A stretch of DNA of 29,511 bases. Source: an uncultured Agathobacter sp. GTDB lineage: Bacteria; Bacillota; Clostridia; Lachnospirales; Lachnospiraceae. Of this stretch, positions 1 through 28,098 are shown piece by piece. Positions within the stretch are counted from its first letter, which is position 1. Each line of letters opens with the position of its first letter. Under the pieces are notes generated by a model that saw only the letters and a list, made by a program, of their open reading frames with translations, had not been told where the DNA came from and searched no databases. Position numbers and translations under genes: made by a program. The stretch spans positions 1 through 29,511 of the forward strand of contig CAKRKX010000021.1 of the NCBI GenBank assembly GCA_934358675.1, read 5' to 3'.

Positions 1-2111
1 ATATTGTCCACCCATACCGGATATGAAACAGACTTTTCACTGCCTCTAAACTTATAGCTTATCGTAAACAGGTATTTATTGTTTTCCGTCGCCGTCCTCG
101 TTGCACCGGATGCAACCTTTACATCCGTGATTCCCAGCTTCGGCATATCCTCCGCCTTTACACTGATCGTCACGTCACGATTTGTAAGTGTATCCACTGA
201 CAATGTATGGCTGATTTTCGGTCCAAGACCTACACCCTGATTAAAATAAAAGCTGAAGCTGTCCGTCGCCTTGATTTCTTCCGTCACCGGATCTTTGAGA
301 ATTCCGGTGATTTTGTATACACCGCTTGACGAGCCCAGTGGCATTCTTAATGTAATCTGCTCCTGTGACTGTGCCTTTCCAAAGCAGGCATCCAGCGCAT
401 TACCGGTCTGTGTATCTGTCAGTGTATATTCCGTAGCATACTCTTTCTTTCCTTTCTGCCGGATCGTCACAAGAGACTGTACAGCAACCGTTTTATTTAT
501 TGTGGATGCATCCCAAAGCTCCATGGAAAAGTCTTCTATATTGGAATCTGCAGCACCACCATCCAGCACAAGCTGCATCCAGTCTACGCTTACGACCCAG
601 GTCGGCGGAGCCACCGTCACAGATATGACATTTTTTCCCTTTTTTAATTTTTCAAGCGGTATCTCCAACACCGTCGTGTTCCACGTATTGTCCGTGCCCG
701 ACAGATAACCGATCGTCTCGTTATTATATTTTTTATTAAATTGATTTGTCTGATCCATCGGCAGATAAATGTCATCATTGAGATACACATAATCTGTCTC
801 TCCGTAATCCTCATCCACATCATACGCCTTGACCGCCAGATAGGCACTCTGTGTCGGCAGCTCATCCAGTGTAAATGCAAGCTCGATCGGATGTTTTCTG
901 TCTGATGAGCACACATTCACATCCATATCGCCATCTGCCTTGCCCGTATGACTGTTGTTCTCGTTGTCTTCCGTGATCATCAGTGTCTGTGGATGGGGTA
1001 CAGAAGCCGGTGCCTTGGCCGGTGCTCGCAGGGGCTGGTCCAAATCCCATGCAGCAACAGACATGACATTCTCTTCCGGCGGCATGACACCGTAATCCTC
1101 CACCAGATCCTCCAGTGTCAGAAGCTTTGGTATTTCATCCTCCGCCATCCGCTGCTGTATCACTTCCGGATAGTGATACGGGCATTTTTTATCCATACAG
1201 TCCGTATCCGTATCACGTATATGCTCCAGACCTTCCAGACGTGCAACAAGCTCCGCCAGACGCTCCTCATCTTCTACGGAAAGTGTTTCTTTCTCCTCTG
1301 TATCGTCTGTTTTATTTTCTTCAAGCCACGCATCCAGCTTCTCCCTCGCTTCGGTCAGCTGCTCCGGATCTATCATATCCGTGTTTTTCTCACCTGTGCA
1401 GAGGTAGGTAAGGGGATCCGGCAGCTTTTCTAACAATGCAAACAGTTCTGCGATCGTTTGTCCCGCAGGATCCGCGATCGTTACACTTATCTGCGGAAGA
1501 CTGACACCATCCGCTACCACATAGTTCTCCGGAATAACCGGCAGATAGACATAACAATTCCCCCAAGTGGCAGAATCGAAGCTGTCCGTCATGTCGGTTT
1601 CCCATGTCACATCAATGGACACCTCCTGCGCACTTTTTACAAGCGGAATCGTTTCTACCGGTTCCGGACTTTCTGTTGCAGCTTCGCCTTCTCCCGGATT
1701 AAGGTTTTCCTCCGGTTTTGTGTCTTCTCCCGATTCTGCGCCTTCTCCCGGTTCTCTTTCTTCATCAGGTGTCTGGATTTCTCCGGATTCTGCTCCCTCT
1801 TCTGTGGAGTTTTCTTCTTCCTGCGCGGCATCATCCGCCGGCTCATCCACGCTCTGTGTATCCAGCATTACGGTAAGCGTATCCGGAAAAACGATTTCGC
1901 TTTCCTGTGCGCCAACAGACAGAAACTGTACTGCTACGGTTTCGTCCAGATCCGCAAATCCCGTAATCACTCCCTGTGGTTTAATTCTTTCACCGGCTGC
2001 TGCAAACGCTGTGAAATCAACGCTTGTGAATACAAGCGACGCTGTCATAAGAAGTGCTGTACCACGCACAAATTTTTCATATTTCTCTCTCTTTGGCCTC
2101 TGCATCTTCAT
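1..2111 (-). CDS. Large secreted acidic surface protein (N-terminal part; runs off left edge)
   Basis: An uninterrupted reading frame runs from ATG at 2111 to the window edge (about 703 residues, no stop), so the C-terminus and anchoring mode are not visible. The start has GGAAGGTGAG a few bases upstream. The N-terminus is a long Gram-positive signal peptide: basic residues to about 16, a hydrophobic core (GTALLMTASLVF) and a likely AFA-AA cleavage near 37. A Glu/Pro/Gly-rich low-complexity stretch follows (about residues 80-150, with repeats such as PGEGAESGE), then a charged helical part with a CxxxxC segment (about 290-330), then beta-rich modules that look Ig-like or carbohydrate-binding-like. 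I recognise no catalytic motif and cannot name a family. It is divergent from the LytTR operon, and the shared intergenic region suggests it may be a target. Secretion is well supported; function is unknown. Confidence 0.85.
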   Translation of the reverse strand, partial: MKMQRPKREKYEKFVRGTALLMTASLVFTSVDFTAFAAAGERIKPQGVITGFADLDETVAVQFLSVGAQESEIVFPDTLTVMLDTQSVDEPADDAAQEEENSTEEGAESGEIQTPDEEREPGEGAESGEDTKPEENLNPGEGEAATESPEPVETIPLVKSAQEVSIDVTWETDMTDSFDSATWGNCYVYLPVIPENYVVADGVSLPQISVTIADPAGQTIAELFALLEKLPDPLTYLCTGEKNTDMIDPEQLTEAREKLDAWLEENKTDDTEEKETLSVEDEERLAELVARLEGLEHIRDTDTDCMDKKCPYHYPEVIQQRMAEDEIPKLLTLEDLVEDYGVMPPEENVMSVAAWDLDQPLRAPAKAPASVPHPQTLMITEDNENNSHTGKADGDMDVNVCSSDRKHPIELAFTLDELPTQSAYLAVKAYDVDEDYGETDYVYLNDDIYLPMDQTNQFNKKYNNETIGYLSGTDNTWNTTVLEIPLEKLKKGKNVISVTVAPPTWVVSVDWMQLVLDGGAADSNIEDFSMELWDASTINKTVAVQSLVTIRQKGKKEYATEYTLTDTQTGNALDACFGKAQSQEQITLRMPLGSSSGVYKITGILKDPVTEEIKATDSFSFYFNQGVGLGPKISHTLSVDTLTNRDVTISVKAEDMPKLGITDVKVASGATRTATENNKYLFTISYKFRGSEKSVSYPVWVDN

Positions 2112-2185
2112 ACCTGCTCACCTTCCCTTTTTATCTTTATCGTGATCCGACAACTACTCGATCACCCCATGATATTCTTAGATAC

Positions 2186-2214
2186 ATTATAACGAAACTT
2201 CTTTTTTGAATGGG
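2186..2214 (-). promoter_or_regulatory. Predicted promoter of the surface-protein gene, strong -10, weak -35
   Basis: On the minus strand a perfect TATAAT (2186-2191) lies 74 bases before the start codon. The region 16-17 bases further up (about ATTCAA) is a poor -35 box. A strong -10 with a weak -35 beside a direct repeat (2222-2252) is the usual arrangement for activator dependence. That reading is inference. Confidence 0.5.
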
Positions 2215-2221
2215 CTTCTTT

Positions 2222-2252
2222 GCGGATTTGGTCACTTTTTGGGCGGATTTGG
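2222..2252. promoter_or_regulatory. Direct repeat GCGGATTTGG, LytTR-like operator candidate
   Basis: GCGGATTTGG occurs at 2222-2231 and exactly again at 2243-2252, a 21-base step (two helical turns). LytTR-domain regulators such as AgrA and ComE are known to bind two short direct repeats about 21-22 bases apart. The pair lies between the divergent promoters, adjacent to the weak -35 of the surface-protein gene and 16 bases upstream of the -35 of the regulator operon. A close relative is at 29126-29155. Confidence 0.55.
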
Positions 2253-2267
2253 CTACCCCCTGTTTCG

Positions 2268-2296
2268 TTGACTCAATCCATCTTCTTTGCTACACT
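2268..2296 (+). promoter_or_regulatory. Sigma-A promoter of the LytTR/kinase operon
   Basis: TTGACT (2268-2273), a 17-base spacer and TACACT (2291-2296) match a vegetative promoter. Transcription would start near 2303, leaving a leader of about 105 bases before the TTG start at 2409. Confidence 0.7.
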
Positions 2297-2408
2297 ATAG
2301 ATATCATTGTAGACGCTGGGCAAGCCTGTTTGATGCGCTTTTACACCAGTTAAATATAGGAGTTTCGCAATCGCTTACAGATAAATTAACGGAAAGGGGA
2401 CTTAAACC

Positions 2409-3155
2409 TTGCAGATTGCTTTATGTGATGATGAAATAACAAACCATGAAAAAACCAGAGAACTTATCAGGCAGTATAAACAGATACATCCTGAACGTAC
2501 CCTTTCCCTGTCATCTTTCTTATCCGGAAGGGAGCTTATCAACCATGTCGATGAACACGGTGGCTTTGACCTCTATATTTTGGACTGCATTATGCCGGAA
2601 ATGAACGGTATTGAGCTTGGTGCGGCGCTCAGAATGCGTGATGATGCGGGTCTTTTACTCTACCTCACTACATCTGCGGACTTTGCGCTGGATTCCTACC
2701 GGGTAGATGCCTTTGATTATCTGTTAAAGCCTGTGGACAAGGCGATGTTTTTCCAAAGCCTCGACAAGGCTTACCACGCTTTCTCACAGATCATGCAGGA
2801 AACCGTTGCGATAAAGACAGCTGGCAGCATCCGCCTGCTTCCCATCGCGGACATCCGGTATGCGGAGCGCAAAGATAAGCATATCGACTATCATCTGGCA
2901 GATAACGCTGTGATACACAGCAGCAGCTTCAACGGCTCTTTCCAGAACGCGGTAACAGAGCTGTTGGCGCACAAAAGAATGCTTCTGGTCGGTTCCTCTT
3001 TTGTCGTAAATCTGTTCCACGTCACTGAAGTTACAAAATCAGACCTGATACTGACCGGGAATCTCCACGTTCCGGTTCCCCGCCGCATGTATGAAACCGT
3101 CAAGAAGGAATGGGCGGATTTCTGGCTGAACGGAGGCAGATACCATGCTTTTTGA
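2409..3155 (+). CDS. LytTR-family response regulator (AgrA-like)
   Basis: 248 residues. The N-terminal receiver domain (1-125) has the acidic pair D7/D8, phospho-acceptor D59 in LDCIMPEMNG, and the switch Lys in DYLLKPV. The C-terminal half (about 137-240) is a LytTR DNA-binding domain with the usual beta-rich pattern and GSSFVVNL segment. The start is TTG at 2409, chosen because AAAGGGGA lies eight bases upstream and the translation begins with the receiver's first strand (MQIALCDDE). The gene overlaps the next kinase by 11 bases, so the two are translationally coupled. By family knowledge it would be phosphorylated by an AgrC-type kinase and activate promoters carrying paired direct repeats; the candidate at 2222-2252 sits next to it. 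Confidence 0.93.
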   Translation: MQIALCDDEITNHEKTRELIRQYKQIHPERTLSLSSFLSGRELINHVDEHGGFDLYILDCIMPEMNGIELGAALRMRDDAGLLLYLTTSADFALDSYRVDAFDYLLKPVDKAMFFQSLDKAYHAFSQIMQETVAIKTAGSIRLLPIADIRYAERKDKHIDYHLADNAVIHSSSFNGSFQNAVTELLAHKRMLLVGSSFVVNLFHVTEVTKSDLILTGNLHVPVPRRMYETVKKEWADFWLNGGRYHAF

Positions 3156-4437
3156 AGACAATATTATTTTTTTACTTTTGAAGGTTATGATCACCTTCAT
3201 CGGAACCCTGGGCATGATGGGTTCCACCACGAAGTTCCGCTACGTGAAAGAGAAACCTGTCAGCATTATGATTTTTGCCGCCTATGTCCTTTATGTTATG
3301 GTCTCTTCCTATGCGATCATCTATTTCTTTAGTTTTCAACATTTGCTGCGGATATTCATTGTGACCATATCCTGCCCGGCGATCGTGCTGCTGCATAATA
3401 TATCTGACGAACCCTTCCCGCGGCTTGTATTCATTCGCGCGACACATATACTTGTCTCTTTATATATTGCAGGTACCATCACGCTCATAAATACTGCGCT
3501 GCATGGAACGGAGCTTTCCGATATCCTGATGCGGCTGCTCGCCTATCTGATCGTCATTCTGTTTGACTTTCATTTTGTGCGGCATATCTATCTGGATTTC
3601 ATCACTGTGATCCGGAAAGGCTGGGGAATTCTTTCCCTGATTCCCTGTGCCCTGATCATCCTTGCCGTGGCTCTTGCTTTCTATCCTGAACATTATATCA
3701 ATCGCCCTACAAGTGTCCTGATGATCTATCTGCTCGGTGCTGTCATAATTGTTCTCTACACTGCGATCGGCGTATATCTTTCCACGCAGTACCACAGACA
3801 GGCCATGGAGCAGAACCGGGAAATTCTTAAGCTGCAGGTGCAAAATATACAAAGAGAAGCTGCTGATATGGAAGCGCTTATGAATCAGACAAGGATTATC
3901 CGGCATGATACCAGACACATGCTCTCCACAATCGCCACTCTGGCCGAGAATGGGGATATGCAGGCAATCCTTGACTTTATCGGCGTCGCAGACGAGAATC
4001 CCGATATGCCGGAGACCTCCTGTTACTGCACAGATGCCCTTTTGGACACTACGCTTTGTTCGTATTTTAAGATGGCAGAAGAATCCGGCATCCGGCTTCA
4101 GACCTCACTTGCCATCCCGGATTCTCTTCCGGTTGACTCTGCCGGGCTTGCCATCTGTTTTGCCAATGCGCTCGGAAATGCCATAGAAGGTTGTGAAAGA
4201 CTCCCTGAGGAGGAACGAAAAATTATTGTGAAATGCATTGAGAAGCCTAAGCTGATGTTTGAAATTAAAAGTTCTTATTCCGGCAGGATCACCTTTGACA
4301 GAAACGGTCTTCCACATTCACCGGAGGGCGGTATGGAAATTCATATCCGTTCCATTGCTGCATTCTGCGAAAAGCATGATGCCTTTTACTCCTTTACCGC
4401 AGAAGGCGGCTGGTTCAAGATTACGGTCGCATTATGA
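3145..4437 (+). CDS. AgrC-like membrane histidine kinase with phospho-acceptor His but degenerate ATP lobe
   Basis: 430 residues. About 210 N-terminal residues hold six or seven hydrophobic membrane segments, followed by a coiled helix (EQNREILKLQVQNIQ), the HPK10 dimerisation box IIRHDTRHML with phospho-acceptor H254, and a GHKL ATPase-like domain. In the ATP lobe N341 is kept, but the acidic N-box residue is Gly (G344 in NALGNAI), the usual Glu-Asn of the next strand is K375-S376, and the GxGxG box reads GMEIH (396-400). These changes probably weaken or abolish ATP use, while flanking sequence is well conserved, so decay by frameshift is excluded. The start has GGAGG upstream inside the regulator gene. 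The next gene is a paralogue with the opposite defects. No AgrB or AgrD-like gene is nearby. Confidence 0.9.
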   Translation: MLFEDNIIFLLLKVMITFIGTLGMMGSTTKFRYVKEKPVSIMIFAAYVLYVMVSSYAIIYFFSFQHLLRIFIVTISCPAIVLLHNISDEPFPRLVFIRATHILVSLYIAGTITLINTALHGTELSDILMRLLAYLIVILFDFHFVRHIYLDFITVIRKGWGILSLIPCALIILAVALAFYPEHYINRPTSVLMIYLLGAVIIVLYTAIGVYLSTQYHRQAMEQNREILKLQVQNIQREAADMEALMNQTRIIRHDTRHMLSTIATLAENGDMQAILDFIGVADENPDMPETSCYCTDALLDTTLCSYFKMAEESGIRLQTSLAIPDSLPVDSAGLAICFANALGNAIEGCERLPEEERKIIVKCIEKPKLMFEIKSSYSGRITFDRNGLPHSPEGGMEIHIRSIAAFCEKHDAFYSFTAEGGWFKITVAL

Positions 4438-4462
4438 TAATACATAAAAATGGGGGAATACT

Positions 4463-5749
4463 ATGATTTTTGATAATAATACGGCATACCAGATTTACCG
4501 CATCTTTGTTGCCATATTTGGCACGCTCGGTATGGTTCTCGCCACGACTCCAATGAAAAAAAACACTAGAAGAAACTTTCTTTTCTTAGGTGGATATGCG
4601 GTCTACTCCATCGCGTTCACTTTCTTCTCCATTCATTTTGGGGGATTTTTGTCTTTTCTCAGAAGTGTGATCTTTACGATTTCTCTGCCTGGCGTGATCA
4701 TGATCTACATGGCTGCAGACACCTCCGTCTCAAGACATGTCTTCAAGTGCCTGTCGCAGCTTCTGCTCTCGCTCTATCTTCTTATCAGCGTAACTCTGCT
4801 CAACACTCTGTTTAAAGGCACGCTGCAGACCAATGCCATACTGCTGCTGTCCGTCTATATTGCTATGATCGCTGCGGAATTTTTCTTTTTGAGAAAACCT
4901 TTCCTGAATATAAGCGGAATCAATGCCAGGGGATGGGGCATTCTCGCTCTGATCCCAATCGCCTTTTTTCTCTTTGTAATGACGCTCGCACTCTATCCGG
5001 TTCATTATACGCAAAATCCATCCTTCGCGCTCCTGTTCTACCTCTCCGGTGCTGTCATTGCCATCATTTACTATGCTGTATTCCAATATCTGCGCACACA
5101 GTACCAATACCAGATGGATGAGCAGAACCGGGAAATTCTGGAAATGCAGATACAGGGAATAAAGAAGCATGCCGAAGATACCAAACGAAACGCAAAGGAA
5201 GTAGAACTCGTCTGGCAGGATACTCACAAGATGCTGTCCGGGATCGCCGCACTTGCCAGAGAAGGCAATGCCAAAGCCATCCTTGACTTTGTCACCGAAG
5301 CATCCGCATTAAACCGTCTGAATATTCCCGCGCATTACTGCAGCGATCCTATATTGAATGCTACGCTCACAGCCTATCTCGGCCAGGCCAAAAGTTCCGG
5401 CATTACCATAGAGCACCATCTTGCGATTCCCGATAAACTTCCTGTCGATTCAGCCGAGCTTTCCATCTGTTTTGCCAACGCCCTGGAAAATGCCATAAAG
5501 GCCTGTGCGTCTCTCCCGAAAAAGGAACGGAAAATTATCATCCGCTGTATCCACAAACCGGCCTTCATGTTTGAGATTGAAAATCCTTACAAGGGGTCCA
5601 TTACTTTCGGAAGAAACGGACTGCCCATTTCCACCCGGATCGGACACGGAATTGGAACGCGCTCCATTATGGCTTTCTGCGAAAAGCATAACGCCTTCTA
5701 CAATTTTTCCGCAGAGGGCGGCTGGTTTAAAGTTATGATCTCTCTGTAA
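4463..5749 (+). CDS. AgrC-like membrane kinase with intact ATP lobe but Gln replacing the phospho-acceptor His
   Basis: 428 residues, a clear tandem paralogue of the preceding kinase (same membrane layout, same EQNREIL helix, near-identical C-terminal EGGWFK motif). The ATP lobe is canonical: N339, E342 and N343 in NALENAI, E373-N374, and GHGIG at 394-398 followed by TRSI. At the dimerisation box it reads LVWQDTHKML, so the His of the RHD motif is Q252 and the preceding Arg is Trp. H255 is close by but is out of register with the acceptor. It should bind ATP but cannot autophosphorylate at the usual site. The likely role, by inference, is to phosphorylate H254 of its partner in a heterodimer. 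It follows the first kinase after 25 bases with GGGGGA as ribosome site and ends seven bases from the convergent protease gene. Confidence 0.9.
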   Translation: MIFDNNTAYQIYRIFVAIFGTLGMVLATTPMKKNTRRNFLFLGGYAVYSIAFTFFSIHFGGFLSFLRSVIFTISLPGVIMIYMAADTSVSRHVFKCLSQLLLSLYLLISVTLLNTLFKGTLQTNAILLLSVYIAMIAAEFFFLRKPFLNISGINARGWGILALIPIAFFLFVMTLALYPVHYTQNPSFALLFYLSGAVIAIIYYAVFQYLRTQYQYQMDEQNREILEMQIQGIKKHAEDTKRNAKEVELVWQDTHKMLSGIAALAREGNAKAILDFVTEASALNRLNIPAHYCSDPILNATLTAYLGQAKSSGITIEHHLAIPDKLPVDSAELSICFANALENAIKACASLPKKERKIIIRCIHKPAFMFEIENPYKGSITFGRNGLPISTRIGHGIGTRSIMAFCEKHNAFYNFSAEGGWFKVMISL

Positions 5750-5756
5750 TCCGTAT

Positions 5757-7577
5757 CTATAGCGCGAGAAACGCCTGATAAGCATTCAGCCGCCCGAATC
5801 CCCACGCCGTATTCGGATATACCATATCCCGGTTTCTATCGCATCCACGGATCAGCACATTGCCAATCTCCACGGAATTCAGTGTGAGTGCATCCTGACG
5901 GAAAACGCCCCATTCCATGAGCTGTGCACACGCACCTGCCGTAATCGCCGCTGCAACGGAAGTGCCGCTTGCAGTCACATAATTGCCCCGTGTGCCTACG
6001 CCCTGTACACGGACGGCCGGAGCACAAAAATCCGGTTTCACCACCGAGCGCACCGTAAAGCCTCTGCCGGAATCCATATAAATCCCCTTATCCGCCACCT
6101 GATAGCCTCCCACCGTAATCGGAATCTGTGCGCTCGACGGACTCGTCAGCGTGATATCCGGATCCGGTCGAAGAAAGAACACATCGAAAGGCAGCATCCC
6201 TTTCATGGGAAGCCACACGTGAAAGCTTCCGGTAATCGTTGTGTCCGGATACACCGACAGTGTCCAGATTCCTCTCGCAGCCTTGTCAAAACGGACAAAC
6301 ACAAGCTGATCTCCCCTCGTTCTCCCTACCGACCGATAGTCAATCTCCACTCTCGTACCCTCAAGCACAAAAGAATACTCCTGATACGCCCCCACTCTTA
6401 TAGCAATCTGTGGCAGTCGTCTTCCCGACGGTGAAGTCACAGACACGGCAAATACTTCCGGTGCGGATGCCCATAATTCCAGATAGAACCCCGGCATATC
6501 GTTCTCCACATCGATTTCCACCTCCACCGGATTGGATTGTAGCGCATTCCTTGCGTTGTTGCCCGACGGCCCAAATGTGACATTGCTCGTTCCGTGAAAA
6601 TGATGCTTTGCGTTTGCTTCGTTTCCGGATGCAATCACCACACACCGGCGGTACAAGGTTCCCACAGCATTCAGATATTCTTCCAGCTCGCTTCCGCCCG
6701 AGTGACTTCCATTGTTTGTTCCCATCCCAAGGCAGATGATAAGCGGCTTCTGCAGCTGCCGGGCTTTTTGTTCCAGATAGGCGACAGCTGCCATAATGTC
6801 ATTCTCCTGATAGACAGGCGTACTTCTCGGAATATAGAAGAAATCCCGCAGATATCGCTTTGCCTCCTTGACTTTTACCATCGCGATATCACAAAGCGGT
6901 GCGGCTCCGATAAAGTTGGCTGCCGCATCCTCGCTCCCGCAGGCGATACTTGCAAGCAGGGTTCCATGTCCGTTTTCATCCCGTTGCGGAACGATCGTAT
7001 AAGGATCATCCACCGCAAGTGCCTCATCGATATCCGCCTTCGTGTATTCTACTCCGTAAGCAAATCCATCTGGAGAACGCCTCCTCTTTTTTGTGCTGCC
7101 ATTGTGCATATCGGATTCCTGAGACGCTGCAGGCGTATCTGCTTCCGGGGCTTTCTCATCCTCTGTCCCTGCATTTTCATCCGCCCCCGGTGTCCCTGTC
7201 TGATCCCAGATCGCAAGTATTCGTGTTGTTCCCGCGTTGTCCTTAAAGCACGCATTGGTATAGGTGATTCCGGTGTCGATGAATCCGACAAGAATGCCCT
7301 GTCCACGCAGGGACAGGGCCGGTTGATTCTGCAGCTGCAGTATACCGCTCTCCTCAAGTGCCGCTGTATCGAGCAGACCAAAGCACTTGGGAATTGCCGT
7401 ATATGTATAGGTTTGTATGCTAAGCGGCGGCACGCTGCCCCGCTCATAATAATGAATATCCAGATTGTTGCTGATTGGCTGAACACAAACGGGTTCGAAA
7501 GGATAACGCTCCAGCGACTCCCGCGGAATGATCACATCATAGGTATCGTTTGATTTAATGAAGGCATCACAATTCAT
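5757..7577 (-). CDS. Subtilisin-family (S8, Csp-like) serine protease without signal peptide
   Basis: 606 residues with a full catalytic set: D101 in GFIDTGI, H204 in NGHGT, oxyanion N319 in ASGNEA, and S540 in SGTSVAA. About 170 residues (345-515) between oxyanion Asn and Ser form a beta-rich insert, as in the clostridial CspA/B/C-like S8 group. There is no signal peptide and no obvious pro-domain beyond about 90 residues, so it is probably cytoplasmic or released by another route. A charged low-complexity loop (about 131-170, acidic then KKRRR) interrupts the catalytic domain. The ribosome site is weak (AAAAGAG). It is the last gene of a same-strand run after the SbcC-like ATPase (59-base gap) and converges on the second kinase. 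Substrate unknown. Confidence 0.88.
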   Translation of the reverse strand: MNCDAFIKSNDTYDVIIPRESLERYPFEPVCVQPISNNLDIHYYERGSVPPLSIQTYTYTAIPKCFGLLDTAALEESGILQLQNQPALSLRGQGILVGFIDTGITYTNACFKDNAGTTRILAIWDQTGTPGADENAGTEDEKAPEADTPAASQESDMHNGSTKKRRRSPDGFAYGVEYTKADIDEALAVDDPYTIVPQRDENGHGTLLASIACGSEDAAANFIGAAPLCDIAMVKVKEAKRYLRDFFYIPRSTPVYQENDIMAAVAYLEQKARQLQKPLIICLGMGTNNGSHSGGSELEEYLNAVGTLYRRCVVIASGNEANAKHHFHGTSNVTFGPSGNNARNALQSNPVEVEIDVENDMPGFYLELWASAPEVFAVSVTSPSGRRLPQIAIRVGAYQEYSFVLEGTRVEIDYRSVGRTRGDQLVFVRFDKAARGIWTLSVYPDTTITGSFHVWLPMKGMLPFDVFFLRPDPDITLTSPSSAQIPITVGGYQVADKGIYMDSGRGFTVRSVVKPDFCAPAVRVQGVGTRGNYVTASGTSVAAAITAGACAQLMEWGVFRQDALTLNSVEIGNVLIRGCDRNRDMVYPNTAWGFGRLNAYQAFLAL

Positions 7578-7636
7578 AGAAACTCTTTTTCACTATTCTA
7601 TGTCCGGGATTTCCTGAATATTCATAACTCTTTCGG

Positions 7637-10036
7637 TCATTCTTTTGCGGACATACGGCTCGAATGGCAGGTAAAATAAAGAATCTGGTATTCTTCTGCG
7701 ATCTTCTGCAACAGTTCGTTTCCGTGCTCCACCTTCTCCTCATCGAGATTGACAAACGGATCATCCAGTACAAGGAACGGCTTCTCGCCCGGATACATCG
7801 CATCGACCAAAGCCAGTCGCATACACACGCCGAGCAGATCCTGATAGCCCGCAGACAACCACTTTGTCTCGCGCAGCTCGCCCTGCTCCTTCACCTGCAC
7901 ATCGATGTTGGCATTGACCATCCAGTTGCCGCTCGCATCGCCGGTCAGAAGCTCATAATACTTGCCGAATCCGTTCTCGATCGGTCCGAGATAGCGCGCC
8001 GAGAACTGCTCCTTTGCTGTCTGTAAGAATTCCTGTGTCAACTGCAGCGTATGATAGGTCTGCGCCTCCAGTTCCTGATCACGCTTACAGATTTCAAGCT
8101 GCTCCTGCTTCTCATCTCGCACATCGAGCTGCTCCTGCATGTCCTCAAGCTGATGCGTGTACTGCTCGATTGCATCACGGACATCTTCGATCCGATCGTC
8201 CACATCGCGGATCATCTCATTGAGCTCATCGAGTGTATATGGGCACTTCTCAACCGAATTGATCTCCCCCATCGGATACTCCATCTCAAACTGCGCCTTC
8301 TTCTTGCAGGCGAGTTCATAGGATTTTACCGCAAGCCGATACTCAGCGCCCTTCATCTGCAGCTGGCTCAATCCCGCTGCAATATCCTCTCCGAAATCCA
8401 CACCAGTCGACTGCCCAAACGCAAGAAGCGACTCGCGGATACGGTTAAATTCCTCCCTTGCTGCATCGCTTTTGGCTGCACGTGTTTTCAGGCGCTCATA
8501 CTCATGAATCTGATTCTTCAACTCATAAAGGCTCGAGCGCGCATCCCTTGCATCATAGGTAATATGGTAGTTTTCAAGAAAATTCTGTGCTCTCTGCTGG
8601 ATACGCTCCGCTTCACCGGAGGCCTCATCCATCGTCTTCTGAATCTCTTCCACCGGCTCACGCAGCTTGCGTTCCTCCTCCTGATACTCCAGAAGAAGTT
8701 CCTTGGCGCGCCGCACATCACGGTCTGCCAAAGCCTTGCGCATCGCAAGCAGGAAAATGCCGATCACGATTGCCAGTGCTCCGGCTCCGATCATAACCAT
8801 CCGGTAGTCTTTTACTTCCGGCAGGACAAAGCCGACAACAGCCGCTGCAATACCCGCCAGGATCAAAAGCACCGCCGGTACGATCATCGCGATCCTGCGT
8901 TTGGCAGGAACCGTCGGCTCCTCGCGCTTCATCGCCATCGCCTCAAAATAAGAGATTTTCGTCTCTAACTGACTCTTCTGTTCACGCAGCTTGGCAAGTT
9001 TCTCCAGCTGCTGATCCATATCGCGGATCTGCGACTCCTCCGGACATCCGTCCGCAAACATATCGGTAAGCTTCGCATACTGAGTCTTCTCCTCGTCCGT
9101 CAGTCCCAGATTGTAAAGAGTCGTCTTAAGCACGCCCATCATCTGCACGTCCTGATTCTTCTGCTGGAACTCCTCATCCTCCGGCACGCGTTCCGGAAAG
9201 ACATCCGCATACTGTTCAACATGTGCCTTACTCTGCTCCACTTCGTCGCAGAGCAGCTGATAATTGTGCTTTAAATTTTCTCTCCGGTTCTCCTCGCTTG
9301 CAACCTGCAGCGCCCTGGCATACTGACCGCGGATATCAGACAGCTCCTTTCTCTGTGCCTGCTTGTCCGCAAGCTTCCGGGTAAGTTCCTGAGCGGCCGT
9401 CTCCGCCGCATCGAAGCTCCGGAGCTCCTCCGTCAAAAGCGTGATCATGTTCTTACGCTTTTTCATGGAACCGGTCGCACGGTCCGGCGAAAGCTTATTC
9501 ATCCGGTCATGGATGCGCTTCGTCGCACTGTCAAAATTGTTGATATCGTTGGTATTCTCCGCCAGATTGCCGAGCTTTGCGTTGATGGCATCGGTCGATC
9601 CGCTCTCACAGTCATTCTGTGCGATAAAAGCGCTGCGCTTGAACGACGCACTGTCAAGCCCGAAGATCTCACTTCCGATCTCCGATGAGAAATCGTGGCA
9701 CTCCAGATTTGTCGACAGATCATACAGATGGTACTCATCCGTCTTCTCTGTCTTGCCAAACGTGCGGCTGATGCGGTACGCCTTGTCCTGATAGGTAAAA
9801 TCAAGCTCACCGCCGAACGTACCTCCCTGCCACGGGCGGTACACCACGCGCTCCTTATCAAACGATCCCGACTCTTTCTTGGAGTCAAATCCATAGAACA
9901 TAACGCGTAAAAAAGCCGCAAGCGTACTCTTGCCCCATGCATTCGGCTCATGAAACAGGTTGACCCCGCCCGTAAAATCAATGGACAGATCGGAGAGTTT
10001 TCCAAAATTATCGATATGACAAGATAATAATTTCAT
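7637..10036 (-). CDS. SbcC/YhaN-like SMC-type ATPase with two membrane segments
   Basis: 799 residues from ATG at 10036; a longer frame opens at 10072, but GGAGGAG precedes the 10036 ATG and that start overlaps nothing essential. The N-terminal ATPase half begins MKLLSCHIDNFGKL and has a Walker A variant EPNAWGKST (30-38). Long coiled coils flank a central pair of hydrophobic helices (about 382-404 and 412-432), as in Bacillus YhaN. The C-terminal half has the ABC signature LSAGYQDLLG, Walker B LVLDDPFVNLD and a terminal His switch (FTCHSSRMS). With the upstream nuclease it should form an SbcCD/YhaNO-like complex acting on DNA ends, probably near the membrane. The stop of the nuclease gene and this start are one base apart, so they are coupled. 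Confidence 0.9.
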   Translation of the reverse strand: MKLLSCHIDNFGKLSDLSIDFTGGVNLFHEPNAWGKSTLAAFLRVMFYGFDSKKESGSFDKERVVYRPWQGGTFGGELDFTYQDKAYRISRTFGKTEKTDEYHLYDLSTNLECHDFSSEIGSEIFGLDSASFKRSAFIAQNDCESGSTDAINAKLGNLAENTNDINNFDSATKRIHDRMNKLSPDRATGSMKKRKNMITLLTEELRSFDAAETAAQELTRKLADKQAQRKELSDIRGQYARALQVASEENRRENLKHNYQLLCDEVEQSKAHVEQYADVFPERVPEDEEFQQKNQDVQMMGVLKTTLYNLGLTDEEKTQYAKLTDMFADGCPEESQIRDMDQQLEKLAKLREQKSQLETKISYFEAMAMKREEPTVPAKRRIAMIVPAVLLILAGIAAAVVGFVLPEVKDYRMVMIGAGALAIVIGIFLLAMRKALADRDVRRAKELLLEYQEEERKLREPVEEIQKTMDEASGEAERIQQRAQNFLENYHITYDARDARSSLYELKNQIHEYERLKTRAAKSDAAREEFNRIRESLLAFGQSTGVDFGEDIAAGLSQLQMKGAEYRLAVKSYELACKKKAQFEMEYPMGEINSVEKCPYTLDELNEMIRDVDDRIEDVRDAIEQYTHQLEDMQEQLDVRDEKQEQLEICKRDQELEAQTYHTLQLTQEFLQTAKEQFSARYLGPIENGFGKYYELLTGDASGNWMVNANIDVQVKEQGELRETKWLSAGYQDLLGVCMRLALVDAMYPGEKPFLVLDDPFVNLDEEKVEHGNELLQKIAEEYQILYFTCHSSRMSAKE

Positions 10037-26512: not shown

Positions 26513-27793
26513 TTATACCGCACTCACTCTTTTCAATTCTCTCTTGGCATTCTCCATATCCACCAATGCCATCTCCTTTTTTAACTGCTCCCTTGCCTTC
26601 AGCTGTTCCAGTTCGCCCTTGGCATCTTCTAGCTTAAGGTGCGTATACACATTTAAAGTTGTCGCTATGTCTGCATGTCCCATAAGATATTGTAACGTTT
26701 TTACTGCTATTCCTGACTTTGCCATATTTGTACAATAAGTGTGCCTGCATATATGAGGTGTAATCTTTGGCAATTCCACCTTGTAGATTTTATTGTATTT
26801 CTCAACAGAATGTTGAAATTTCTTTTCCCACTGATATGCCAACATTGGTTTTCCCTTATCATCCAAGAACAGAAAACCACTGACACCATCTATCATCAGT
26901 TCCACTCTTGGCTTTTTTCTGCCCGATATAACACGCTTAAATGCTTCATACACCTCATCACTCATTGGAAGAACCCTGGTTCCTGCTGTTGTCTTAGTCT
27001 GCTCTATGTACGCTTTCTTTCCACCTGTGTACTGCAACTGCTTATTAATATCTACTGTCCGCTCCTGCATATCTATGTCACGAATTGTCAATCCACACAA
27101 TTCGCTGATACGCAATCCCGTTTTTAACAAAATGAACATACCATCATAAAACTGACTGAAATATTCATCTTTCTTGATGAATTTCAAGAAGTCACGTTCC
27201 TGCTTTGGTGTCAATGCATCACGCTTGACGGAATCATTTATCAGCACTGTTGCGAGTTCAAAATCAAAAGGATTTTTACGAAGCAAATCATCTTCCACAG
27301 CCATTGCAAAGGCAGGTCTTACTACTCCACGAATACTGTGTATGGATGAATAACTGCGTCCACCATCCTGCAACTCTATCAGCCACATTTTCGCTTCAGA
27401 TGTTTTGATGTTAGCAATCTTCTTTTTTCCAAACGCGTCTTCTTTCAACACGCTTATTACTGTTTTATATCCTGCCCTTGTTGTAGGACGCACCTTCGTT
27501 TTTAAACTGATATACCGCTCCACCAATTCAAGCACGGTTATACCGCCTGCTTTATATGAAATGCCGTCACGCAAATCCTTTTCAATCAGCTTCTCTTTTT
27601 CTCTCAATGATAAGTCAATCTTTTTCCCTGCTGGTGTCTTATCGTTCCGTTCCAGCTTCCAACTGTAAATGTACATTCTTTTGCCAGTTGTCGTGTCTTT
27701 GTATGCATACATATATCTACCGTCCGCTCTTTGCATCTCATTATCTCTCAAAATGCGTCCTTTGCTATCTTTTCTTTTGAAACTCTCTGCCAT
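26513..27793 (-). CDS. int: Tyrosine-type site-specific integrase (Tn916 Int-like)
   Basis: 426 residues from ATG at 27793 (GGGAGGA upstream; a longer frame opens at 27895 across the inverted repeat and is not used). Residues 1-80 resemble the Tn916-type arm-binding domain (GRYMYAYKDTTTGKRMYIYSWKL). Residues 85-185 are a SAM-like core-binding domain and the rest is the catalytic domain: R228 (TGLRISEL), H347-x2-R350 (HICRHTYC), H373 (GHADIATT) and nucleophile Y383 (VYTH). It would catalyse integration and excision of the element. It is preceded by xis and by a hairpin. Confidence 0.95.
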   Translation of the reverse strand: MAESFKRKDSKGRILRDNEMQRADGRYMYAYKDTTTGKRMYIYSWKLERNDKTPAGKKIDLSLREKEKLIEKDLRDGISYKAGGITVLELVERYISLKTKVRPTTRAGYKTVISVLKEDAFGKKKIANIKTSEAKMWLIELQDGGRSYSSIHSIRGVVRPAFAMAVEDDLLRKNPFDFELATVLINDSVKRDALTPKQERDFLKFIKKDEYFSQFYDGMFILLKTGLRISELCGLTIRDIDMQERTVDINKQLQYTGGKKAYIEQTKTTAGTRVLPMSDEVYEAFKRVISGRKKPRVELMIDGVSGFLFLDDKGKPMLAYQWEKKFQHSVEKYNKIYKVELPKITPHICRHTYCTNMAKSGIAVKTLQYLMGHADIATTLNVYTHLKLEDAKGELEQLKAREQLKKEMALVDMENAKRELKRVSAV

Positions 27794-27816
27794 AGTTTTG
27801 TCCTCCCGCAATTTAT

Positions 27817-27860
27817 AATTCCCTTTGGGTGGTGGATTGTAACGCCACCTAAAGGGAATT
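27817..27860 (-). repeat. Hairpin between xis and int
   Basis: Arms AATTCCCTTTGGGTGG (27817-27832) and CCACCTAAAGGGAATT (27845-27860) match except for one pair that would be G-U in RNA, giving a 16-bp stem with a 12-base loop. It ends about 14 bases upstream of the int ribosome site, so it could control int expression or be an integrase/excisionase binding site. Confidence 0.75.
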
Positions 27861-27891
27861 GCAAATGTTATTTTTAGGTAATTTTTAACTT

Positions 27892-28098
27892 TCAAATACT
27901 GTAAATCTCGTCAAGAAACTGCTCAAATTTTGCTCGCTTGATTAGTACTTTCACACCATTATTGAGTAGAAAATCAGCACTGCCATTTTCCTGCACCATC
28001 TGACGCAGTTTCTTTTCTCCAATGTTGAAGTAATCACTTGCCTCTGTAATTGTGAGGCTGTATTTATGCCATAGTGGCACTTTGTTTTCTTTATTCAT
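27892..28098 (-). CDS. xis: Excisionase (Tn916 Xis-like)
   Basis: 68 residues from ATG at 28098 (TTGGAGGC upstream), close to the 67 of Tn916 Xis. It has a winged-helix excisionase pattern: PLWHKYSLTITEASDYFNIGEKKLRQMV, then a basic wing NGVKVLIKRAKFEQFLDEI. It bends DNA to favour excision by Int. It sits directly upstream of int, separated by about 100 bases with a hairpin. Confidence 0.92.
   Translation of the reverse strand: MNKENKVPLWHKYSLTITEASDYFNIGEKKLRQMVQENGSADFLLNNGVKVLIKRAKFEQFLDEIYSI

Follow-up and report, generated by a model that had tools for sequence, protein, structure and literature searches.

Can two membrane sensor kinases, encoded side by side and each lacking a different part of the active site, work together as one histidine kinase? 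Histidine kinases are usually regarded as self-sufficient homodimers. A three-gene operon in the window (the whole stretch of DNA analysed here, 29,511 nucleotides) raises this question. Our analysis points to a naturally occurring split kinase of the HPK10/AgrC type, a reading that we hold to be very probable. It would be heteromeric, with the second kinase (K2) phosphorylating the histidine of the first (K1).

The locus and its gene products

The operon lies on the forward strand. Its first gene, at positions 2409..3155 with a TTG start, encodes a LytTR-type response regulator with REC and LytTR domains (PF00072 and PF04397, both above the Pfam cut-off). K1 (3145..4437, 430 aa) overlaps the regulator by 11 bp. 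It is a polytopic sensor with a DHp domain carrying His254 and a degenerate ATPase domain without the G-box of the ATP lid. K2 (4463..5749, 428 aa) is likewise polytopic. In its DHp domain Gln252 replaces the histidine, and its N-box and G-box are canonical. The GHKL family PF14501 matches both proteins, K2 with 44.7 bits and K1 more weakly with 32 bits. Counted from the ORF start at 3145, the His254 codon occupies 3904..3906 of the forward strand and reads CAT. It encodes the only conserved H-box histidine of the pair.

The database clusters P0001 and P0121, with representatives 100% identical to K1 and K2, comprise 7 and 8 contigs, respectively. An assembly error is therefore unlikely.

Where the sources name these proteins, the annotations are sensor histidine kinase, GHKL domain-containing protein or hypothetical protein. 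Annotation therefore does not reveal the split. A phage or plasmid origin was also considered and rejected. No viral contig encoded a K1 relative, there was no phage match, and the plasmid set gave one partial match at 27.5%.

Active-site residues

The sequence-only reading of this locus had described complementary defects in the two kinases. The ORF translations confirm all of its residue calls. K1 presents R-H254-D, G344 in the N-box, K375-S376, and GMEIH at 396-400. K2 presents W-Q252-D, E342, E373-N374, and GHGIG at 394-398. Close to Gln252, the K2 of the window has a histidine at 255. This residue varies among relatives: P0123 has tyrosine, and boxes of the ARRDIRQ type have arginine.

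The same reading listed three changes in the ATP lobe of K1. All are present in the window, but the only one that K1 relatives share throughout is the loss of the G-box (ATP lid). Of the 76 K1 rows that have a residue at the acidic N-box site, 38 keep an acidic one (35 E, 3 D). The N-box change in the window is thus a lineage-specific addition. Asn374 is retained in 27 of 76 K1 rows. Intact single kinases, too, often lack the first glycine of GxGxG (17 of 26 have E, D or A instead), and the H-G-x-G core is consequently a better marker.

Conservation of the complementary pattern

The order regulator-K1-K2, with adjoining genes and the same complementary defects, is present in all nine linked loci (the window and eight genomes). 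This is more than chance. In each of them, the histidine and the ATPase function are on separate co-encoded proteins, as in a split histidine kinase. Residues were counted over 270 collected rows. The H-box histidine occurs in 85/85 K1 rows covering the site versus 0/144 K2 rows. The ATP-lid G-box motif occurs in 0/88 K1 rows (13 without a residue there) versus 143/144 K2 rows, and the N-box glutamate is intact in all 144 K2 rows. Single-kinase relatives conserve both the histidine and the H-G-x-G core (26/26 rows by residue, 23/26 by regular expression). Only they combine an H-box histidine and an ATP-binding CA domain in one chain, the HPK10/AgrC-like condition, which neither K1 nor K2 presents.

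The expectation of the sequence-only reading, that loss of the histidine and loss of the ATP lobe go together in neighbouring genes, is thus borne out in every linked locus, and the single-kinase relatives show neither change. Relatives with one change only, which it had counted against itself, did not appear among the rows examined. The nearest case is G436, which retains only a 152-residue fragment of the K2 ATPase domain and has no regulator match.

K1 could instead be a pseudokinase that modulates K2 or another kinase, with its own histidine unused and K2 reaching the regulator by a different route. Histidine kinases of this sort exist, a role discussed for DivL and for ChrS-CAfs with HrrS, and the histidine of ChrS-CAfs is dispensable according to the accessible text of PMC9491836. 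For K1 we consider it unlikely. A histidine kept in every covering K1 row and in no K2 row argues against it. Moreover, without the K1 histidine the operon has no conserved H-box histidine for the conserved aspartate of the regulator.

Alternatively, another intact GHKL kinase phosphorylates K1, with K2 acting chiefly as a phosphatase or a negative regulator. Apart from the pair itself, the K2 query has 10, 5, and 5 matches in G001, G002, and G003, and phosphorylation of K1 by kinases of this kind is conceivable. Free CheA3, the half of the Rhodobacter split kinase that bears the histidine, is described as a phosphatase in the part of PMC3591291 consulted. Nevertheless, this alternative seems very unlikely. 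K1 adjoins a full-length K2 in 9/9 loci, and the ATP-site motifs of K2 are kept as counted above. In G004, whose assembly may be incomplete, the K2 query matched K1 and K2 alone.

Duplication, reciprocal loss and selection pressure

With the motif columns left out, the tree shows a single duplication and, on each side, a single loss (K1 95/83, K2 100/100). The motif states are retained across both clades, of 50 (K1) and 24 (K2) rows. On this tree, the co-occurring losses are a single evolutionary event that was then maintained, and not many independent ones.

The loss is more extensive in some K1 proteins. Two species of the same genus, G680 and G983 (two of the nine loci), have a K1 that lacks the entire ATPase domain and keeps an intact RHDLRH box. 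K2 starts 64 bp after this ATPase-less K1, which in G680 has no Pfam match. Other C-terminally short K1 proteins are P0225, P0227, P0228, and P0232. The deletion of the domain in two genomes carries the split further than the evidence available to the sequence-only reading.

Conservation is distributed reciprocally between the two kinases. Identity in the H-box stretch is 0.74 in K1 versus 0.58 in K2. From the N-box to the G-box it is 0.59-0.60 in K1 versus 0.75 in K2. The bootstrap interaction for this rate shift between H-box and ATP site is 0.32 (0.16-0.47). Among five stretches compared in K1, the H-box stretch is the best conserved, which again speaks against a pseudokinase with an unused histidine. 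The ATP-site stretch of K2 evolves more slowly than that of K1, as for a catalytic kinase, and this weighs further against phosphorylation of K1 by another kinase. When the whole DHp is compared with the TM region, K1 is no better conserved relative to K2 (interaction 0.03, -0.07 to 0.13). By these comparisons, the reciprocal shift in constraint is confined to the H-box and ATP site.

The dN/dS values of close pairs are ≤0.33 in all segments, except for the K2 H-box stretch in two comparisons (0.46, 0.52). It means that K1 and K2 are both under selection to be kept. The ATPase domain of K1, where present, has dN/dS values of 0.10-0.21, that is, some constraint. It must then have a role that the split-kinase model leaves unexplained, and partial constraint on a degenerate domain would suit a pseudokinase modulator.

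Relaxed decay of a duplicated operon, with one or both genes becoming pseudogenes, could also produce defective kinases. The fragment in G436 and the absence of the ATPase domain from two K1 proteins are compatible with it. So is the patchy occurrence of the pair: samples of a family, an order, and a class contained it in 1/397, 3/394, and 1/391 genomes, respectively. We regard this explanation as extremely improbable. Apart from the low dN/dS values and the motif states held over both clades, the eight genomic pairs show neither dN/dS near 1 nor frequent frameshifts, and there are no internal stops in their matched frames.

Structure models

AlphaFold models of K1 and K2, made as single chains, show six helices in K1 and seven in K2, followed by a helix some 80 residues long that continues into the DHp domain, and then an alpha/beta CA domain. 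Their pTM is low (0.52, 0.53), and the placement of the domains is unsure. AgrC 6e52 is the nearest PDB entry for both models. By sequence, the A2 (K2-led) profile matched none of the solved structures. As modelled, both proteins fit the HPK10/AgrC-like architecture, in which a polytopic sensor leads through a long DHp helix to a CA domain of the GHKL family.

Regulator, repeat and divergent gene

A homologue of the LytTR regulator adjoins K1 in 9/9 split loci, the operon arrangement of HPK10 kinases. The acidic pair of the receiver, its phosphorylation aspartate, and its lysine are conserved in all nine. In G680 and G983, the second threonine of the regulator's LTTS is replaced with valine.

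Between the regulator and a divergent gene, a perfect 10-bp direct repeat with a 21-bp period lies at 2222..2252 (forward strand), in a LytTR/AgrA-type arrangement. We sought such 21-bp-period repeats upstream of 14 regulators and scored each against 100 shuffles. G001 has a similar element, and G002 a weaker one. Shuffles as good were 0/100 for the window, 4/100 for G001, and 34/100 for G002. The element was not found upstream of the regulator in the split loci G003, G004, G494, G680, G983, and G1120. Two single-kinase loci have a related-looking repeat, matched by 14/100 (G370) and 43/100 (G919) shuffles.

The divergent gene (3..2111, reverse strand) is cut by the window edge. Its product has by eye a signal-peptide-like N-terminus and, in Pfam, only a sub-threshold CBM-like match. 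It might be a target of the system. A loose similarity group (F3) joins divergent secreted genes at 5/14 loci. Their Pfam contents differ, so the divergent gene as a common target stays a guess.

Proposed mechanism

An intact kinase gene, partner of a LytTR regulator, was duplicated and then underwent reciprocal loss. K1 would have become the subunit that accepts and donates the phosphoryl group, and K2 the subunit that uses ATP. The two are probably joined through their DHp helices as a membrane heterodimer. The ATPase domain of K2 would phosphorylate His254 of K1 in trans, and K1 would pass the phosphoryl group to the regulator. The 21-bp repeat might then serve in autoregulation of the operon. 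Four elements of this scheme are inferences: that K1 and K2 form heterodimers, that the phosphoryl group flows in this direction, that the output needs both sensor domains, and that the repeat mediates autoregulation. Homomers of K1 and of K2 may also form.

A stronger version is an obligate coincidence detector, in which two diverged polytopic sensors can each bind a ligand of their own and signal only as a K1-K2 heteromer. We give it slightly less than an even chance. If true, the reciprocal loss of active sites would enforce heterodimers as an evolved AND-type gate, and this would be the first split kinase found in nature within the AgrC family. Living lineages would then still show every stage, from one like the intact ancestor through point decay to domain deletion. 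One small bacterial family seems to keep the intact single kinase, the reciprocal loss after duplication, and the physical removal of the domain no longer used. The long-standing question of how and why duplicated genes come to encode obligate heteromers in place of homomers could thus be tested in a simple three-gene operon. With K1 and K2, trans phosphorylation in receptors of the AgrC type could also be assayed by mixing natural partners.

Comparison with known systems

The locus resembles AgrCA, whose kinase is a well-known type of quorum-sensing receptor, in its polytopic sensor, long DHp helix, GHKL CA domain, LytTR partner, and two repeats at a 21-bp period. AgrC is described as trans-autophosphorylating in the accessible text of PMC10482373, as the sequence-only reading had stated. 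The complementation between His and G-box mutants of AgrC that it also cited was not found in the open-licence literature, among the matches listed. AgrC differs in forming a homodimer from one protein that carries every part, whereas here the histidine and the ATPase are on two paralogues. As to peptide genes of the agr type, we noticed nothing like agrB or agrD among neighbouring ORFs of 80 aa or more (the ORF list includes shorter ones at positions 1-9000 of the window).

Heteromeric or pseudokinase control of histidine kinases is described for RetS/GacS, DivL, and the pseudokinase ChrS with HrrS (portions of PMC5992135, PMC9491836, and PMC12189002). As far as these portions tell, the partner there is an intact kinase, without reciprocal loss. 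Mycobacterial Rv0600c/Rv0601c is reportedly a split kinase too. With TcrA, it is not known to form an HPK10/LytTR system. Its two kinases cooperate with one regulator, by the available text of PMC9274095.

Split kinases as such are already known. Among the matches listed, the open-licence literature had no AgrC/HPK10 split kinase formed by reciprocal decay of tandem paralogues. In Synechocystis, Hik36/Hik43-Rre6 is termed a split histidine kinase, with interaction by two-hybrid (PMC7656254, in part). It differs from K1/K2 as a CheA homologue divided into an HPt and a catalytic part, encoded far apart in that account. The example given earlier, Rhodobacter CheA3/CheA4, is indeed a natural split kinase, and Hik36/Hik43 has to be added to it. 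In the accessible text of PMC3591291, one protein has the histidine and the other the ATP-binding catalysis, and neither autophosphorylates alone. K1/K2, judged from sequence, share this separation of histidine and ATP site. However, CheA3/CheA4 is a CheA split by missing domains. K1 and K2 are full-length membrane sensors with reciprocal point decay, and domain loss is a later step in some lineages.

Active-site residues of the two kinases

The window presents an operon-like run of three genes on the plus strand. The first encodes a LytTR response regulator (2409-3155). It overlaps by 11 bp the gene of the AgrC-type kinase K1 (3145-4437), and the third gene encodes its neighbour K2 (4463-5749). 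K1 and K2 alike match PF14501, a GHKL domain. The complementary defects claimed in the sequence-only reading were confirmed residue by residue. K1 has the acceptor box R-H254-D, with G344 instead of the usual N-box acid, K375-S376 instead of Glu-Asn, and GMEIH instead of GxGxG. K2 reads W-Q252-D at the acceptor box and conserves E342, E373-N374 and GHGIG. Sequencing error is unlikely, because each kinase is 100% identical to the representative of a protein cluster, and these clusters (P0001 for K1, P0121 for K2) cover 7 and 8 contigs, respectively.

In AlphaFold single-chain models (mean pLDDT 82.3 and pTM 0.53 for K1; 81.3 and 0.52 for K2), AgrC (6e52) was the top structural match of both kinases. 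The structure 6e95 ranks second or third, and the AgrC ATPase (CA) domain 4bxi appears further down for both. These matches suggest that the K1 CA domain would keep its fold despite the lost lid motif.

Elsewhere in the window, a Subtilase-family (Peptidase_S8) gene (5757-7577, minus strand) converges on K2; a similar ORF was found in 0 of the other 13 loci compared. A divergent, probably secreted protein (3-2111, minus strand) is cut by the window edge. A Tn916-type integrase (26513-27895, minus strand) lies close to the right end, and GatB, amidase and tRNA-synthetase genes are also present.

Distribution of the split locus

Whole-genome searches gave eight further loci with both genes (genomes G001, G002, G003, G004, G494, G680, G983 and G1120). 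G001-G004 are MAGs named Lachnospiraceae, Eubacteriales, Roseburia hominis and Oscillospiraceae; for the K1-clade proteins P0053 and P0231 the named sources are Bulleidia and Erysipelotrichaceae MAGs. Counting the window, regulator, K1 and K2 adjoin in the same order in 9/9 loci. In all nine, K1 shows the RHD-T/L-RH box and lacks the ATP-lid G-box. K2 lacks the H-box His in each of them and has an intact ATP site (in G1120 with DHGLG in place of GHGIG). The residue replacing His is Q in the window, G001, G002, G003 and G1120, and R in G004, G494, G680 and G983. Four more putative pairs with the same residue states occur among metagenome proteins (P0033/P0062, P0032/P0078, P0030/P0084 and P0058/P0095), their linkage being judged solely from the equal length of the carrying contigs.

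Genomes carrying both genes are rare. With the centre genome of each sample included, they number 1/397 in the family of G001, 1/250 in that of G002, 2/197 in that of G680 and 1/10 in that of G494. At the genus level the values are 1/77 (G001), 1/62 (G003), 1/5 (G494), 2/71 (G680) and 1/2 (G1120); the order of G004 has 3/394 and the class sample 1/391. In genome G436, all that is present is an in-frame C-terminal piece of K2 with 152 residues (7115-7576 of its locus, L100). It corresponds approximately to residues 276-427 of K2, with 65% identity. In the 15 kb fetched for this locus nothing matched the regulator, and nothing but the piece itself matched K1. It could be either an operon relic or a lone ATPase domain.

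Motif states were assigned in a set of 270 rows, made up of 235 hits from protein searches plus 35 proteins from the loci. Near-duplicates were kept, and each row was placed with its nearest tree clade. His is present in 85 of the 88 K1 rows; the remaining three are short pieces (183-225 aa) without a residue there. The G-box motif occurs in 0/88, 13 of which have no residue at that place. The 144 K2 rows show Q (138), R (5) or a gap (1) at the His position, N-box Glu in 144/144 and the G-box in 143/144; in the exception, D replaces the first Gly. Among single kinases, His, N-box Glu and the HGIG core are conserved in 26/26 rows, with the first Gly replaced in 17. All 12 outgroup rows carry His, the N-box Glu and the last two of the three Gly; one of them has another residue for the first Gly. 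Tandem kinase genes both bearing His and G-box exist in G693, G821 and G539 (in the last, one member was missed by the regular expression). So, tandem duplication alone is insufficient to make the pattern. Large proteins beside two single-kinase loci (G370 and G812) have BspA-type LRR matches.

Evolutionary history and selection pressure

K1 and K2 each form one clade, nested among intact single kinases, in a quick tree (108 rows) and in a careful tree (75 rows, four motif stretches removed). Support in the careful tree was 95/83 for K1 and 100/100 for K2. With states assigned by clade, parsimony on this tree gives one His-state change and one G-box-state change. It means that the co-occurrence is a single event since kept, and not repeated convergence.

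Decay has continued in one direction, and some K1 proteins have lost the ATPase domain. The genomes G680 and G983 belong to the same genus, and in both K1 has 294 residues and stops just past the H-box helix, with RHDLRH intact; that of G680 has no Pfam match. The K1-K2 spacing is 64 bp in both, and a hairpin-like inverted sequence was judged by eye in this gap (8787-8850 of the G680 locus, L089, and its G983 counterpart). Other short K1 proteins are P0225 (294 aa), P0227 and P0228 (304 aa) and P0232 (272 aa). P0225 groups with G680 and G983 in the quick tree, P0227 and P0232 are placed elsewhere, and P0228 was removed by clustering beforehand. P0227, P0228 and P0232, examined at the protein level, serve as supporting cases only. 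In the protein search giving P0121, the 120 matches listed of 417 all have at least 407 aa.

Identity was compared in seven full-length K1-K2 pairs. The H-box stretch (245-275) has a mean identity of 0.74 in K1 versus 0.58 in K2, and the N-box-to-G-box stretch (335-405) 0.59-0.60 versus 0.75. By column bootstrap, the interaction between these stretches was 0.32 (interval 0.16-0.47). It was 0.15 (0.05-0.26) for the whole helix domain (DHp) against CA and 0.12 (0.04-0.20) for the membrane sensor region (TM) against CA, with no difference between DHp and TM (0.03, -0.07 to 0.13).

In four close comparisons dN/dS was at most 0.33, except for the K2 H-box stretch in two (0.46 and 0.52). These values indicate that both genes are maintained. 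Constraint also persists on the ATPase domain in those K1 proteins that retain it (0.10-0.21); this domain may therefore serve structure or contact K2.

The regulator and its upstream repeat

The receiver acidic pair, Asp and Lys are conserved in the regulators of 9/9 split loci; in G680 and G983, LTTS has Val for its second Thr. A perfect 10-bp repeat with a 21-bp period lies at 2222-2252 of the window, and shuffling the 320-bp stretch upstream gave no repeat as good (0/100). The same repeat precedes the regulator in G001, where 4/100 shuffles do equally well, and a weaker form does so in G002 (34/100). It was not found upstream of the regulator in the other six split loci. When the pattern built from the window repeat and that of G001 was run against the window, it matched nowhere else; 0.02 matches would be expected by chance. 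An AgrA site is described as a pair of 9-bp repeats separated by 12 bp, the same period (PMC10482373). The conserved receiver residues and this AgrA-like repeat support a working regulator.

G001 has a second copy (5861-5891 of its locus, L084), on the strand opposite to the next gene and upstream of a 5'-nucleotidase-type gene (PF02872, 6147-7967). In the fetched flanks, this family is near 6/9 split loci versus 0/5 single-kinase loci. It is also near the G436 piece. The repeat-associated genes may be targets of the regulator.

Proposed mechanism and known split kinases

K1 by itself offers an acceptor His but lacks the ATP lid, and in two genomes the entire ATPase domain. K2 by itself offers the ATP site but lacks a conserved acceptor, and the regulator retains its Asp. 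The simplest working arrangement would be a K1-K2 complex, with K2 phosphorylating K1 H254 in trans. The observations cover sequence, linkage, history and constraint, and from them the complex, the phosphoryl flow and the dependence on both sensors are inferred.

Split histidine kinases are already known. CheA3/CheA4 is one example, and a survey of 42417 HisKA proteins counted 711 (1.7%) as possibly split and bifunctional (PMC3591291). Hik36/Hik43 is another (PMC7656254). The open-licence literature searched gave no split kinase of the HPK10/LytTR kind, which leaves such absence unproven. Among the split kinases found, CheA3/CheA4 and Hik36/Hik43 included, none belongs to this kind, and none consists of two full-length membrane paralogues whose active-site losses are reciprocal, as K1/K2 does.
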